A stretch of 64,000 nucleotides of DNA from Mycolicibacterium crocinum (lineage in GTDB: Bacteria; Actinomycetota; Actinomycetes; Mycobacteriales; Mycobacteriaceae). This document shows positions 6,270 through 23,859 of the stretch, piece by piece. The DNA lies in assembly GCF_022370635.2 (NCBI RefSeq), contig NZ_CP092362.2:5766001-5830000 (forward strand). Direction: 5' to 3'. Under the pieces are notes generated by a model that was given only the letters and a program-made list of their open reading frames with translations, had not been told where the DNA came from and ran no database searches. The position numbers were made by a program, and so were the translations under genes. The stretch's first letter is position 1, and every line of letters starts with the position of its first letter.

Positions 6270-7053
6270 CATCGACGGATACGTCATCGAGTCGGTGCTC
6301 GGCACCGGCGGCACGGGCACGGTCTACCTGGCCCGCCACGAAAGAGTGCTGGTCGCGCTCAAGGTACTCACTGCCGAATGCCCCGCCCCGTTGCGTCACC
6401 CGCATATTGCGCAGGTTTACGAGGCGGGGCGGTTGCCGGACGGAAGGCACTGGCTGGCAATGCAATACCTCGCCGGTGGGGACGCCGACAGCGAGCTGCG
6501 GGCCGGCCGGATGTCACCGGCACGGGCGGTGCAGATCATCGCCGATGTCGCCGCAGCACTCGACTTCGCGCACGACCGAGATGTCGTGCACGGTGACGTC
6601 AAGCCGTCGAACTTTCTGCTGGCCGAGGACGGCCGTGCAGTGCTAACCGACTTCTGCACGAGTCCATTCGAGCGCGAGGGCATGGTGCTGACGTCGGCCG
6701 CCTTCGCGTCGCCGGAGATGTTGCGCGGCGGCCCGGTTGACGCACGGGCCGACGTATATTCATTGGGCTGCTCGCTGTTTCGGCTGCTGACCGGCAAGCC
6801 ACCGTTCTTCGACGCCGGCTCCAAGGACGAGGTGGTGCAGGCTCACCTGCATCGCGAACCTCCGCGGCCTACCCAGTTCGCGCCGTGGTTGCCTTCGGCG
6901 ATGGACGACGTCGTAGCCACGGCGCTGTGCAAGGACCCGGGCGGGCGCTACCCGAGCGCGGGCGAGCTGGCACGTGCCGCCACGGCGGCGCTACACGTTA
7001 AAGCTCCACCGGCACACGCTTTTCCGCGCACGCATCCGCCACCGCGGCAATGA
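6256..7053 (+). CDS. Degenerate Ser/Thr protein kinase (probable pseudokinase)
   Basis: A 265-residue protein made almost only of a kinase fold, with no transmembrane or extracellular part. Present: the glycine loop GTGGTGTVYLA (16-26), the VALK lysine (Lys36), the catalytic loop HGDVKPSN (112-119) and a SPEML/DVYSLG region. Unusual: only about ten residues separate VALKVL from RHPHIAQVYE, so the alpha-C helix with its Lys-partner glutamate is missing. HRD is HGD, DFG is DFC (132-134), and APE is SPE. Loss of these elements suggests weak or absent phosphotransfer. Translation probably starts at the GTG inside the ATPase gene's end, which links the two products. Its 3' end overlaps the opposing eccC-eccA gene by 56 bases. 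Confidence 0.8.
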   Translation: MDPVSIDGYVIESVLGTGGTGTVYLARHERVLVALKVLTAECPAPLRHPHIAQVYEAGRLPDGRHWLAMQYLAGGDADSELRAGRMSPARAVQIIADVAAALDFAHDRDVVHGDVKPSNFLLAEDGRAVLTDFCTSPFEREGMVLTSAAFASPEMLRGGPVDARADVYSLGCSLFRLLTGKPPFFDAGSKDEVVQAHLHREPPRPTQFAPWLPSAMDDVVATALCKDPGGRYPSAGELARAATAALHVKAPPAHAFPRTHPPPRQ

Positions 7054-8593
7054 GATCCTGCGTCCGTAGCGTCTCGAGGTCCTCGACCGTCACCGAACCG
7101 CGGCTGGTGCGGTTCTGCGCGGCGACCCGCGAGTCACGCAGTCGCTCGGCCCGTTCGACGACGTTACGGGCGAACCGGCCGTTCTGCATCACGTCGATAC
7201 CGTGGGTGCCGTCAGGCGCGAGGTAGGCACGCAGCTTGCGGCACGCGGCGTTCAGCGCATCCTGCGCGGCCGGTTCGATTACTGTGGCGCGCGGTCCGCC
7301 GTAGCGCACGGCGATCTCCACCAACTCGTCGGGACTGTAGGACTCGAACCTCAGCTTGCGGTTGAACCGTCCCGCCAAACCCGGGTTCACCGTGAGGAAT
7401 TCGTCGACTTCCTTCTCATAACCCGCGCCGATGAAGCAGAAGTCGAACCGGTGCACCTCCAGTGCGACGAGCAGCTGGTTCACCGCCTCCATGCCGATCA
7501 TGTCCGGCCGGCCGTCGTGATGGCGCTCCACCAGGGAATAGAACTCCCACTGCTCGGGGGTGCCGACGTTGTCGTCGACGATCACCCAGTGCGGACCGAG
7601 CGCGTTGCCGGAGGCCGCTTCCATAGGCGAGAGCATGGTCGTCGGACTGGAACCACTGGGCGGGGCCCACGGCCCGCGACCCTTGCGGTGCAGCTCGGAA
7701 TCGAGCGCGTCCTCGAGTTCGGTGGGCGAGGTGAAGACCAGCCGGCGCAGGCCGCACGCGTCGAACATCTCGTCGTGCTGATTGTGCGGCAACCACACCA
7801 GCCACGACCACAGTTCCGGGTGGCGGGTGACGACCATCAGCTTGATGTCGTTGGGGCTGTGATAGACCGCCAGCTCACACAGCACCGCCCGCATGAAGGA
7901 GTGCAGCTCCTCGGAATCGTCGCCGACGAAGCTGAATCCCGGACGCGAGCGCAGGCTCAGCACCTTGCCGATGCCGCGGATCTTGCTCTGCTCCAGGATG
8001 AAGTCCCGCAGCGCCCGACCGGTCACCGGTTCGAGCTCCTCGCCGACCGGTACCTCGGGCCACTGCAGGGAGACCGCGGAATCGGCGGCCGACTGAACCC
8101 CGATGCCGAGCCGCACGTCGAGGAAATCGGCGTCGGAAGGCCGACGCTCCCACATGCGGGGTCCGCCGATGACGGTGTCGAGCTCCTGCGGGTCACCGTG
8201 CACGAACAACTGGCTGCGACGCTGATCCTGGGCAGCGCGCTGCACCTCGTCGCGGTCGTCGTCGAGCTGGCGCAGGTACATCCGCCGCTGCTTTTCCTGC
8301 TCGCCCCAGCTGATTCGTCGACCGCGGCCGAGCCGGCCGCTGAACATCAGCGCGCCGAAGCCGACCAGACCGACCATCGGGAAGAAGCCGGACTGCAGCG
8401 ACCGGACACCGGAGGTGTACATCACGACGAGCGTGCCGATGATGCCGACCAGCAGCGCGGGCAGCGCGATCATCAACAGGATGTTGCGCGGCTCACGCTC
8501 GGGCAATGCCAGCGGCGGGGCGACGGCCACCCGCACCGGCGGCACGGGGGGCGTCGACTTACGTGCGCCGCGAACGAATCCTCTTTTCGACAC
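6998..8593 (-). CDS. EccC-EccA hybrid: ESX EccCa N-terminus fused to EccA C-terminus
   Basis: One open frame of 531 residues built from two ESX genes. Residues 1-348 match the EccC N-terminal region: two membrane helices (about 37-60 and 68-85), then the cytoplasmic stretch that normally precedes the first FtsK-type ATPase domain. From about residue 350 (EFYSLV, then GRPDMIGMEAVNQLL) it is the back of EccA: the AAA+ domain from the Walker B/sensor region, including NPGLAGRFNRKLRFESYSP, and the C-terminal helices with GIDVMQNGRFARNVVERAE. All EccC ATPase domains and the EccA Walker A are gone. A GTG follows GGGAGGA, 2 bases after the eccB stop. The order fits an ESX-2 locus (eccB2, eccC2 ... 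eccA2) collapsed by one in-frame deletion. The frame is intact, so it may still make a membrane protein. Confidence 0.85.
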   Translation of the reverse strand: MSKRGFVRGARKSTPPVPPVRVAVAPPLALPEREPRNILLMIALPALLVGIIGTLVVMYTSGVRSLQSGFFPMVGLVGFGALMFSGRLGRGRRISWGEQEKQRRMYLRQLDDDRDEVQRAAQDQRRSQLFVHGDPQELDTVIGGPRMWERRPSDADFLDVRLGIGVQSAADSAVSLQWPEVPVGEELEPVTGRALRDFILEQSKIRGIGKVLSLRSRPGFSFVGDDSEELHSFMRAVLCELAVYHSPNDIKLMVVTRHPELWSWLVWLPHNQHDEMFDACGLRRLVFTSPTELEDALDSELHRKGRGPWAPPSGSSPTTMLSPMEAASGNALGPHWVIVDDNVGTPEQWEFYSLVERHHDGRPDMIGMEAVNQLLVALEVHRFDFCFIGAGYEKEVDEFLTVNPGLAGRFNRKLRFESYSPDELVEIAVRYGGPRATVIEPAAQDALNAACRKLRAYLAPDGTHGIDVMQNGRFARNVVERAERLRDSRVAAQNRTSRGSVTVEDLETLRTQDLIAAVADACAEKRVPVEL

Positions 8594-8595
8594 CG

Positions 8596-10092
8596 CTATC
8601 CTCCCGCGTTCTGTTGGCCGGGTGCGGCCACTGGGGCCACCGCACCACCGGGATCGATGGTGTCGCGCGCCAGTAGTGCGGTCGCGCGGTTGATGGCCGG
8701 CCCGGCAGCGAACGTGCGCAAGATCGGCCACGGTGCCTGGACCGCCTGGCGCGGGTCCAGTCCGAGCGCCTGCAGCGTGCTCTGGTCCCACTCGACGCCA
8801 TACCGAACCCCTTGTGGCGAAACCCAATACAGGCTCTCGCGGGTGTCCGACGCGGCCGCGGCACTGGTGGATGCGACGAAGTTCGCAGACCCCGGCAGGA
8901 TCAGGGTCTGGTTGGCCTCGACGGAATCGGGATCGCGGCTGTCACGGACCAGCCGCACGATGTGCGAGTCCATGCCTTCCGGGCTCGGCAGGCCGCGCCC
9001 GCTGAAGAATGTCACCGTGGCCTGCCGGTCGGTGGTCTGCTTCTGCCAGCCCACACACGTCACCGGGTTGGCGTCGGTGTCGATGAAATCCAGCTTGCCG
9101 GTTGGATAGAAGTCGACGTTGAGCACCGACACCTGGGGAATGTCAACGAGCTTGTCGGGTGAGATCAACTGGGGCGTCGTCGAACCCTGACTGTTGGCGG
9201 TGCGCAACAGGTCGGCGACGAAGCCGGTGATCTTCTGCACACCGTCGGGAAGCAGCGCGTAGAAGCCGCTGACGTTTCCGCCTGAGTCCTTGGTCTCCAG
9301 GACACTGCCCACCACCGACCCCGCCAACAGCCGCGACGGGCTGCCGGCCTCCGGAATGACCGGCACGACAAGGGGTTCCGTCGCCGGCATCGCGTCGAAC
9401 AGGGCGTTGGAAATCTGGATGGGACGCGTCACGCCCGGGTCGAGCCCGAGATTGAAGGTGACCGAACGGTCGGCCGGGTCGATCTGGGTGCGCTGGCCGT
9501 TCCACACCAGATACGTGTTGGTGCCATGGGTGACCAGGACGGCCTGCGTCGGGCGAATGGGCTGGGCCCGTCCGCCACCGTAGATCTCACCGGCGATGGC
9601 GGTCACCATCGGCGGCTGGCCGCTGCCGCGTGCCGCCGCGGTGTCACACAACGACCATGCGGAGACCGGATTCGCCGATACGGTCAAATCGTCTGGTATG
9701 CCCGGGATCCCGATCATCGGTCCGGTCGGATACTTGGCGATCTCCTTGGCGTTCACCCACGTCGGCGTCGACGAGCTACCGGTCGCCAGTCGAGCCGAGG
9801 TCAGGTTCAGCGCCGGATACAACCGATTGTCGATCTTCGCGTAGAGCGCGCCGGTATCGCGGTTGCCGATGATGTTCGACTGGCCCACCAAGCCGGCCGG
9901 CTTCATGAAGTGCAGCAGCGCCATCCACCCGCAGCCGATCAGCACGAAGACGATCGACAGCGCGACGGCCGCCTGCTGCTTGCGGTCGTCGTGCTTCATC
10001 CGCACGGAGAAGCGAGTGATCGCCGCCCTCAGTCGGCGGTTGTAGAACAGGTGCCCGGAGTTCTGGTCCCGGTTGGACAGGTTCAGTGGCAC
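8596..10092 (-). CDS. eccB: ESX type VII secretion membrane protein EccB
   Basis: A 498-residue EccB, the ESX core component with a short cytoplasmic N-terminus, one membrane helix (about 40-62) and a large periplasmic domain. Family hallmarks seen: NSGHLFYNRRLRAAI near the start, LYPALNLTSARL, the SLCDTAA cysteine region, and SLYWVSPQGVRYGV near the end. The length is normal and there is no frameshift. The start is a GTG preceded by GGAGGG at 8 bases. It lies 32 bases after the YbaB-like gene and 2 bases before the eccC-eccA hybrid, so all three look co-transcribed. Next to the ESX-2-like hybrid it is best read as eccB2. No eccD, eccE, mycP, esx, PE or PPE genes are in the window. Confidence 0.93.
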   Translation of the reverse strand: MPLNLSNRDQNSGHLFYNRRLRAAITRFSVRMKHDDRKQQAAVALSIVFVLIGCGWMALLHFMKPAGLVGQSNIIGNRDTGALYAKIDNRLYPALNLTSARLATGSSSTPTWVNAKEIAKYPTGPMIGIPGIPDDLTVSANPVSAWSLCDTAAARGSGQPPMVTAIAGEIYGGGRAQPIRPTQAVLVTHGTNTYLVWNGQRTQIDPADRSVTFNLGLDPGVTRPIQISNALFDAMPATEPLVVPVIPEAGSPSRLLAGSVVGSVLETKDSGGNVSGFYALLPDGVQKITGFVADLLRTANSQGSTTPQLISPDKLVDIPQVSVLNVDFYPTGKLDFIDTDANPVTCVGWQKQTTDRQATVTFFSGRGLPSPEGMDSHIVRLVRDSRDPDSVEANQTLILPGSANFVASTSAAAASDTRESLYWVSPQGVRYGVEWDQSTLQALGLDPRQAVQAPWPILRTFAAGPAINRATALLARDTIDPGGAVAPVAAPGQQNAGG

Positions 10093-10123
10093 GGGTGGTG
10101 TCCCTCCGCCAGGTCTGCAGGGG

Positions 10124-10441
10124 TCACCGCAATCCACCTCCGTACCGTGCCTGGTTGTCCGTTTGGGCTTCCTCGCGCAGGGCGGCGAAAGCCAGATTCA
10201 GCCGGTCGCTGAGCTCACCGTGGCTGTAATCGGTGACGACCGCCGGGTGCAACGTGAGCTCGATGAGTTTGCCGTCGGAGTTCGCCACCGCGTGTATGTC
10301 CCCCAGATCGACGCTGTACGTGATGGTCTCGGCCTGCGCGACGAGCGCCTCCCAACGCTCGGCAGCCTCGCTCAGTTCCTTCAAGACCGCGTCGACGAGA
10401 TCCCTGTCGCTAAGCTCGCGATCGCTGCTGGATCCCGCCAC
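10124..10441 (-). CDS. YbaB/EbfC-like small protein (EspL-type), ESX-associated
   Basis: A 105-residue protein with the YbaB/EbfC layout: an N-terminal amphipathic helix (LVDAVLKELSEAAERWEAL), a central beta hairpin (ITYSVDLGDIHAVANSDGKLI, LTLHP) and a C-terminal helix (LNLAFAALREEA). YbaB proteins are dimeric DNA-associated proteins. ESX-1 encodes the related EspL, so placement just before eccB fits an ESX accessory. Function here is unknown. It probably heads the eccB / eccC-eccA transcript. Confidence 0.7.
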   Translation of the reverse strand: MAGSSSDRELSDRDLVDAVLKELSEAAERWEALVAQAETITYSVDLGDIHAVANSDGKLIELTLHPAVVTDYSHGELSDRLNLAFAALREEAQTDNQARYGGGLR

Positions 10442-16327: not shown

Positions 16328-16370
16328 AGTTCGGGTGCGAGAAGTGCTGAGGACTTCTCGCACCCGAACT
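16328..16370. terminator. Bidirectional hairpin terminator
   Basis: An 18-base perfect stem (16328-16345 with 16353-16370) and a 7-base loop, directly after the acyl-CoA dehydrogenase stop and facing the end of the opposite His-rich gene. It should end transcription from both sides. Confidence 0.88.
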
Positions 16371-16394: not shown

Positions 16395-16640
16395 TCAGCC
16401 GCGATGGCGATTCCACTGGTGGTGATGATGGATCGAGGAACCCGGGACCGGCTGGTTGTGCTGGTGGGGGAACGTGGTGTGCGGCGTCGGAGAGCTCATG
16501 TTAGGTCCGGTCGTGTCGGCGTGGCCGGCACCGGCTGCGCCGAGTGCCACCATCGCGGACCCGGTGGCCAGAACTGCGCCCGCGGCGATGCGCTTGAACC
16601 AGAGGCTCGTCGAGTTGGTGGTGTTCATCGTGATCGTCAT
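16395..16640 (-). CDS. Tiny secreted His-rich protein (paralogue 1)
   Basis: An 81-residue precursor with a Sec signal peptide: LWFKR, then a hydrophobic core, cleavage after GAGHA at residue 41. The mature part is about 40 residues, 8 of them histidine. It starts DTTGPNMSSPTPH, continues TTFPHQH and ends HHHHQWNRHRG. The gene at 23197 encodes the same layout: GPNMSxPxxHxTFPxQH, PGS, HHHHQW. No Cys is present. Clustered His suggests Zn, Cu or Ni binding outside the membrane, but no known family is recognised. Its upstream region contains a 63-base element also found ahead of the paralogue. Confidence 0.72.
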   Translation of the reverse strand: MTITMNTTNSTSLWFKRIAAGAVLATGSAMVALGAAGAGHADTTGPNMSSPTPHTTFPHQHNQPVPGSSIHHHHQWNRHRG

Positions 16641-16716
16641 GGCTGTGCAATGTCCTTGCTTCGTCTTTCACCGGTTTGCCGGCGGTGATCCAACGATCCC
16701 GCGAATCGGCGCCGAC

Positions 16717-16779
16717 GTCTGTCGGGTGACCAGGCCAAAGCAGGGGTGAAAGCGGTGTCCACCGATCGGTGGACACCGC
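16717..16779 (-). promoter_or_regulatory. Conserved upstream element of the His-rich secreted gene 1
   Basis: A 63-base stretch alignable without gaps to 23508-23570. Both copies begin GTCTGTCGGG and end with the identical CGATCGGTGGACACCGC (plus-strand reading). The two copies sit 77 and 84 bases from the starts of the two paralogous genes. This copy ends in a perfect 28-base palindrome. It is probably a shared promoter or regulator site. Confidence 0.6.
16752..16779. repeat. Perfect 28-base palindrome
   Basis: A self-complementary sequence (arms GCGGTGTCCACCGA and its complement, no loop) five bases after the stop of the DUF1254/1214 gene. It could be a terminator hairpin for that gene or a dimeric operator. 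One half, but not the other, is repeated at 23553-23570, which favours an operator derived from a shared half-site. Confidence 0.7.
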
Positions 16780-23196: not shown

Positions 23197-23424
23197 TCAC
23201 CCGGCGTGGTGCCACTGGTGGTGATGGTGTTCGGGCGAGCCGGGTGCCGCGGGGTGTTGGCCGGGGAAGGTCTGGTGGCGGCCGGGCTGGCTCATGTTGG
23301 GACCGCCGTTGAACGAGCCGCTGTCGGCGACGGCGTCGGTAGCCGCACCGAAGGCGAACAGTGCCGAGCCCGCGGCCAGGGCGCTACCGGCGGCGAATCG
23401 CTTCATCCAAGTCATGGTGGTCAT
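23197..23424 (-). CDS. Tiny secreted His-rich protein (paralogue 2)
   Basis: A 75-residue precursor. The signal peptide (MKRFAAGSALA, hydrophobic core, cleavage after DAVA at 33) is followed by a mature part of about 42 residues with 8 His: GGPNMSQPGRHQTFPGQH, then HHHHQWHHAG at the end. It shares its motif order with the protein encoded at 16395-16640. No Cys. Likely exported and metal-binding; function unknown. The start could also be Met4 or Met7. Confidence 0.72.
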   Translation of the reverse strand: MTTMTWMKRFAAGSALAAGSALFAFGAATDAVADSGSFNGGPNMSQPGRHQTFPGQHPAAPGSPEHHHHQWHHAG

Positions 23425-23507: not shown

Positions 23508-23570
23508 GTCTGTCGGGCAGCCGGTGGATCACGGGGCGGAGGCGAGCGTCCCCCGATCGGTGGACACCGC
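23508..23570 (-). promoter_or_regulatory. Conserved upstream element of the His-rich secreted gene 2
   Basis: The partner of 16717-16779: same 63-base length, same GTCTGTCGGG start and same CGATCGGTGGACACCGC end, with a diverged middle. It lies 84 bases upstream of the His-rich gene. It also sits between that gene and the divergent small secreted gene at 23692, so it might serve both. Confidence 0.58.
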
Positions 23571-23691: not shown

Positions 23692-23859
23692 ATGAAGAAG
23701 TACGCAATCACCACAGCGATCGCAGGCGCGATGACCGCCGCCGTCCTCGGCCTTGCCGGACCCGCGCAGGCCGACCTCGGTCACAACGACTGGGTCAACA
23801 ACATGGGCCCGACGGCGACCGCGCCGCACGTAGACACAACGGTCCACGGAAGCCGTTGA
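23692..23859 (+). CDS. Tiny secreted protein, divergent from the His-rich gene
   Basis: A 55-residue precursor. MKKYAITTAIAG plus a hydrophobic core ends in GPAQA (cleavage after 27). The mature 28 residues are DLGHNDWVNNMGPTATAPH and VDTTVHGSR. The NMGP and scattered His recall the neighbouring GPNM His-rich proteins, but the resemblance is weak. A GAGGGA lies upstream of the ATG and a strong terminator follows 16 bases after the stop, both supporting a real gene. Confidence 0.75.
   Translation: MKKYAITTAIAGAMTAAVLGLAGPAQADLGHNDWVNNMGPTATAPHVDTTVHGSR

Follow-up and report, generated by a model that had tools for sequence, protein, structure and literature searches.

A NarL-linked palindromic promoter block upstream of His-rich and other predicted secreted mini-proteins in mycobacteria

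The window analyzed here, a 64,000-nucleotide stretch of DNA from the soil-type mycobacterium Mycolicibacterium crocinum, carries two genes on the same strand whose starts are separated by 6.8 kb and whose short products share an unusual His-rich composition (Table 1). The original prediction had singled out this pair on the basis of a common pattern, GPNMSxPxxHxTFPxQH ... PGS ... HHHHQW, in His-rich mature parts of 40 and 42 residues devoid of Cys. Both open reading frames are present, the pattern is exact in both, and the composition agrees, with His making up 20% of the predicted mature part of gene 1 and 19% of that of gene 2, and 0 Cys in either. The N-termini display KR, a hydrophobic stretch and an A-x-A type end (by eye), so that a Sec signal peptide is likely on both products; by inspection, the same organization of positive n-region, hydrophobic core and A-x-A is kept across the aligned members of the family described below. 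Pairwise BLASTP aligned 56 aa of the two proteins at 54% identity (E 4e-9), and each is the only strong match of the other in the 6.18-Mb M. crocinum genome. The pair was found again in about 20 related species, on the same strand and 2–8 kb apart. Because of these mutual matches, this recurrence and the low dN/dS of the genes (see below), the pair is confirmed as real rather than a product of chance.

Table 1. Features of the two His-rich mini-protein genes and their surroundings (positions within the window)
Feature	Position	Strand	Basis or remark
Gene 1, His-rich secreted mini-protein preprotein (predicted), 81 aa	16395..16640	-	ORF, BLASTP, family matches, dN/dS
Mature part of the gene 1 product (predicted), DTTGPNMSSPTPHTTFPHQHNQPVPGSSIHHHHQWNRHRG, 40 aa, 8 His	16398..16517	-	cleavage after GHA, by eye
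Putative -10 (GATCGT), gene 1 promoter	16693..16698	-	conserved block
CCCGACAGAC element in the promoter of gene 1, likely -35 / second half-site	16717..16726	-	
Perfect palindrome TGTCCACCGATCGGTGGACA, candidate NarL operator, upstream of gene 1	16756..16775	.	
Gene 2, His-rich secreted mini-protein preprotein (predicted), 75 aa	23197..23424	-	ORF, BLASTP, family matches, dN/dS
Mature part of the gene 2 product (predicted), DSGSFNGGPNMSQPGRHQTFPGQHPAAPGSPEHHHHQWHHAG, 42 aa, 8 His	23200..23325	-	cleavage after AVA, by eye
CCCGACAGAC element in the promoter of gene 2, likely -35 / second half-site	23508..23517	-	
Palindrome with 1 mismatch to consensus, candidate NarL operator, between gene 2 and divergent 55-aa gene	23547..23566	.	
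Divergent 55-aa secreted mini-protein (predicted) MKKYAITTAIAGAMTAAVLGLAGPAQADLGHNDWVNNMGPTATAPHVDTTVHGSR, different family	23692..23859	+	palindrome shared with gene 2
Hairpin, 18-bp stem, between gene 1 and convergent acyl-CoA dehydrogenase gene	16328..16370	.	RNA -35.4 kcal/mol, z -6.6

With a profile built from two sequences, 116 of the 397 Mycobacterium genomes (the genus taken in the wide GTDB sense) had family matches at E<=1e-3. Copy number reaches 7, with some genomes holding 4–7 copies that are partly arrayed and with tandem copies in several, while other genera of the same taxonomic family yielded no convincing member, only weak or signal-region matches. We gathered 84 distinct sequences, setting 3 doubtful ones aside, and these comprise two conserved subtypes that correspond to gene 1 and gene 2. 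Across 32 diverse aligned members, the start, the signal-peptide-like N-terminus and the C-terminal motif are conserved, and the mature part, with about 20% His, follows H..FP.Q....P....HH.HQ, which includes an invariant HHxHQ and further invariant His. Synonymous changes exceed replacements, with dN/dS of 0.24 among 19 type-1 genes and 0.28 among 25 type-2 genes, and the proteins are thus judged to be under purifying selection at a dN/dS of about 0.25. No match at family cut-off was obtained in Pfam, NCBIfam, PHROG or PDB chains for the window proteins and their relatives. The proposal of a new secreted family accordingly stands, given the lack of a curated match, the signal-peptide-like N-termini and the genus-wide conservation; the two are not PE/PPE proteins, a PE-like family being one of the outcomes that would have counted against it, as neither had a Pfam match above cut-off. 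AlphaFold2 modeling with the 32 sequences gave no confident fold (pLDDT 55, below 70 everywhere), the outcome expected for a short unfolded peptide, and we regard the family as probably consisting of short, secreted, unfolded His-rich mycobacterial peptides.

Both genes are preceded by a 20-bp palindrome, TGTCC(C/A)CCGATCGG(G/T)GGACA, with the window form TGTCCxCCGATCGGxGGACA, of which the window holds two copies against 0.04 expected. Among the 81 family genes having enough upstream DNA, 79 carry the palindrome, 72 of these with at most two mismatches, and in nearly all of them its position relative to the start is between -126 and -153; six placed at -107 reflect an over-long start chosen for those genes. 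The presumed transcription start follows the palindrome at about 80 bp, and conservation continues 3' of the palindrome at fixed spacing through TTC..CC, a GACAGAC element similar to one of its halves, an AT..TT element that is probably the -10, and CGCCGGAA...CCGG within the leader. Within the 5' leader, the element CGCCGGAACACACCGG is conserved (alignment A3 columns 49–66) and is predicted to form a short RNA hairpin. Pattern searches in 10 genomes returned 7–15 sites per genome with at most one mismatch, versus 0–2 for the reversed pattern. The palindrome letters appear in none of the papers searched, and the palindrome was not recognized as a metalloregulator site or as any other known mycobacterial operator.

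Gene 1 and gene 2 belong to a broader group of predicted secreted mini-proteins that share a candidate operator, a point overlooked in the original prediction. The same promoter block precedes several unrelated families of secreted mini-proteins, with median palindrome–start distances of 142–146 bp and with the same downstream elements, without gaps; TTTLNDYSPYTDSSSTGNFYAPTTYATPATTYVPWGAWINGSY, AADGCGYGYHLDGGTCVLNAPGPGARFISPNCWINDNGDERCFAGS and STQAPVGPGYSYSPDTYAKPAPTAAPGWHNNHGPARIAHLLGS exemplify products with unrelated mature parts encoded at equal distance from the palindrome. The window itself provides such a case, as the palindrome of gene 2 lies midway between this gene and the divergent 55-aa gene, a homologue of which occurs in 15 of the 15 related loci checked. 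In other genera of the taxonomic family, the palindrome stands before the gene for a secreted protein (about 150 residues) with ITNNT...NPYGxW, for which the two representatives tested had no Pfam match; loci encoding such a protein of about 150 aa comprise L248, L249, L252, L256, L259 and L260 from other genera, together with L149. The target set is not pure, because a minority of sites adjoin genes other than those for small secreted proteins. Palindromes were thus seen near genes for App1-like, thioesterase-like, MFS transporter and IHNQTPV proteins (L110, L103/L161, L163 and L107; named by eye), which may be further targets or chance occurrences.

In the M. crocinum genome, one palindrome is found about 20 bp ahead of the gene for a response regulator, and a kinase gene directly follows the latter. 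The regulator combines a receiver with a LuxR/GerE domain, matches M. tuberculosis NarL (Rv0844c; PDB 3EUL, receiver domain) at E 8e-63 and is on these grounds a NarL-type response regulator; the kinase gene encodes an HATPase_c domain behind a hydrophobic N-terminal half. At this narL promoter (L165:1557-1720, C1 about 298 kb), the palindrome is accompanied by a gene for a divergent 54-aa secreted mini-protein, MDRTFTRRFTTALAGPTLAVGVLAGTLIVDTPAASDTMGLSLSAATAGLVDIHL, at the usual distance. The palindrome occurs in the narL promoters of many genomes, with mini-protein genes that differ by species placed divergently from, or adjoining, narL–narS; in G396, a member of the His-rich family is itself divergent from narL with the palindrome in between.

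In their phyletic distribution, the family and the site track the regulator. NarL is present in 79 of the 80 genomes with strong family members versus 201 of 317 others, the sole NarL-less genome of the 80 being an 80%-complete assembly. The exact palindrome, counted as a 16-base site, was found in 84 of 102 NarL-positive versus 12 of 98 NarL-negative sampled Mycobacterium genomes (Fisher 5e-25), and among 56 genomes of other genera the palindrome is present in 7 of the 12 with a close NarL versus 2 of the 44 without (Fisher 1e-4), although these P values overstate independence because shared ancestry is ignored. The repeated physical linkage of narL and palindrome is independent of them. Statistically, therefore, the candidate operator lies upstream of its presumed targets mainly where NarL exists, with exceptions on either side. 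The exact 16-base site is absent from 18 of the 102 NarL-positive genomes, and the NarL orthologues of G314, G063 and G340 are without the palindrome in their own promoters. Conversely, the 12 NarL-negative genomes carry 1–5 sites each; some of those with several look like incomplete assemblies, among them G145, in which no NarL was found and which has 5 sites, four of them adjoining mini-proteins. From this combination of linkage and co-occurrence, we infer that NarL quite likely binds the palindrome and has secreted mini-proteins as its regulon. The literature searched described neither an operator nor a secreted mini-protein regulon for NarL of mycobacteria.

The best explanation overall, to which we assign a probability of about 0.72, is a promoter block under NarL control that drives secreted mini-proteins, with the His-rich family as one branch. 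The palindrome might instead be read by a different regulator that co-occurs with NarL, either another LuxR-type response regulator, for instance MnoR, or an unlinked protein of TetR/MarR type, which would account for the narL promoters lacking the site, for the sites retained in NarL-negative genomes and for G418, where the site shares a contig with a NarL-like regulator of 43% identity only. In M. smegmatis, MnoR binds a palindrome that lies 137 bp before its target (PMC11303327). However, the MnoR consensus, for which the text gives no motif letters, is reported to be single-copy in M. smegmatis with 0 one-mismatch sites (PMC11303327), and no other regulator was recognized beside the palindrome sites in the M. 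crocinum genome. With the divergent or adjacent placement of narL repeated in many species, and with NarL co-occurrence in two taxon sets, another regulator appears rather improbable.

A second alternative, that of the original prediction, casts the mini-proteins as secreted Zn-, Cu- or Ni-binding peptides, a His-based counterpart of metallothioneins or a metallophore, with NarL playing an incidental part or none in their control. It draws on the invariant HHxHQ, the further invariant His and the high His content of the aligned members, but the sister mini-proteins driven by the same block are without the His cluster, which speaks against metal binding as the theme of the regulon. Nor was a metal-linked regulator or gene recognized among the neighbors examined, and the palindrome was not recognized as a metalloregulator site; we consider this alternative doubtful. 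MymT, the mycobacterial copper metallothionein, is Cys-rich and cytoplasmic. The window proteins resemble it as small mycobacterial proteins with possible metal ligands; they differ in their signal-peptide-like N-termini and in the absence of Cys from both mature parts, so that they are not metallothioneins of the MymT type, and no sequence relation to it was found. Far less probable still is a reading of the mini-protein genes as spurious or decaying ORFs, with the conserved block as the mark of a mobile element or small RNA. The shortness of the ORFs and the conserved 5' leader with its GCCGG...CCGGC hairpin would fit such an origin, yet substitutions are biased to synonymous ones, the start, N-terminus and C-terminal motif persist throughout the 32 diverse members, and differing coding sequences stand behind one block. 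An RNA family was rejected for want of an Rfam match, as was a mobile-element or phage origin given no match in phage or plasmid records; only 8 palindrome-bearing stretches were present in 2.9 million viral contigs.

If NarL indeed controls the block, the NarS membrane kinase would sense an envelope or extracellular signal, as suggested by its hydrophobic N-terminal half, and would then phosphorylate NarL. Dimers of phosphorylated NarL would most likely bind the palindrome, and probably also the half-site over the -35, whereupon RNA polymerase would transcribe the mini-protein gene, with NarL presumably switching it on rather than repressing it. The mini-proteins would be exported and probably act outside the cytoplasmic membrane. 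In the His-rich branch only, the His cluster might let the peptides bind the envelope or other ligands in a metal- or pH-dependent manner, a guess that we hold to be on the unlikely side.

The mycobacterial DevR/DosR regulon is controlled by a response regulator of LuxR/NarL type through primary and secondary boxes. The combination of a 20-bp upstream palindrome with a second, weaker element over the -35 resembles this layout; it differs in that the DevR boxes read GGGAC...GTCCC, in contrast to GTCCC...GGGAC here, and in that the targets here are mostly secreted mini-proteins. With MTB12 and other small secreted mycobacterial proteins, the products share short length and probable Sec-type signals, but a sub-threshold MTB12 match of one sister mini-protein (14 bits versus a cut-off of 125) comes from the signal region and is far below the curated cut-off, and the mature parts are unrelated.

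For mycobacterial NarL, the analysis supplies an explicit 20-bp candidate operator together with the layout of the promoter and a list of candidate targets, mostly orphan secreted mini-proteins without a match to any curated family; this makes the question of what the little-understood NarL–NarS system controls directly testable and places several unnamed secreted families within one regulatory setting. More speculatively, and with somewhat less than even odds in our estimation, mycobacterial NarL–NarS may chiefly switch a fast-diversifying repertoire of secreted mini-proteins, whose mature sequences are unrelated while the promoter block before them is fixed and of which the His-rich family is a branch, rather than chiefly respond to nitrate. 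If so, this repertoire may serve envelope remodeling, signaling or competition, and the mini-protein genes would have been duplicated and re-targeted together with their promoter as a unit.

Two further features accompany the gene pair in the window. The hairpin that separates gene 1 from the acyl-CoA dehydrogenase gene convergent with it is likely a bidirectional terminator, and an ESX type VII secretion locus, with EccB (Pfam) and an AAA protein, lies upstream of the pair at 6998-10137.
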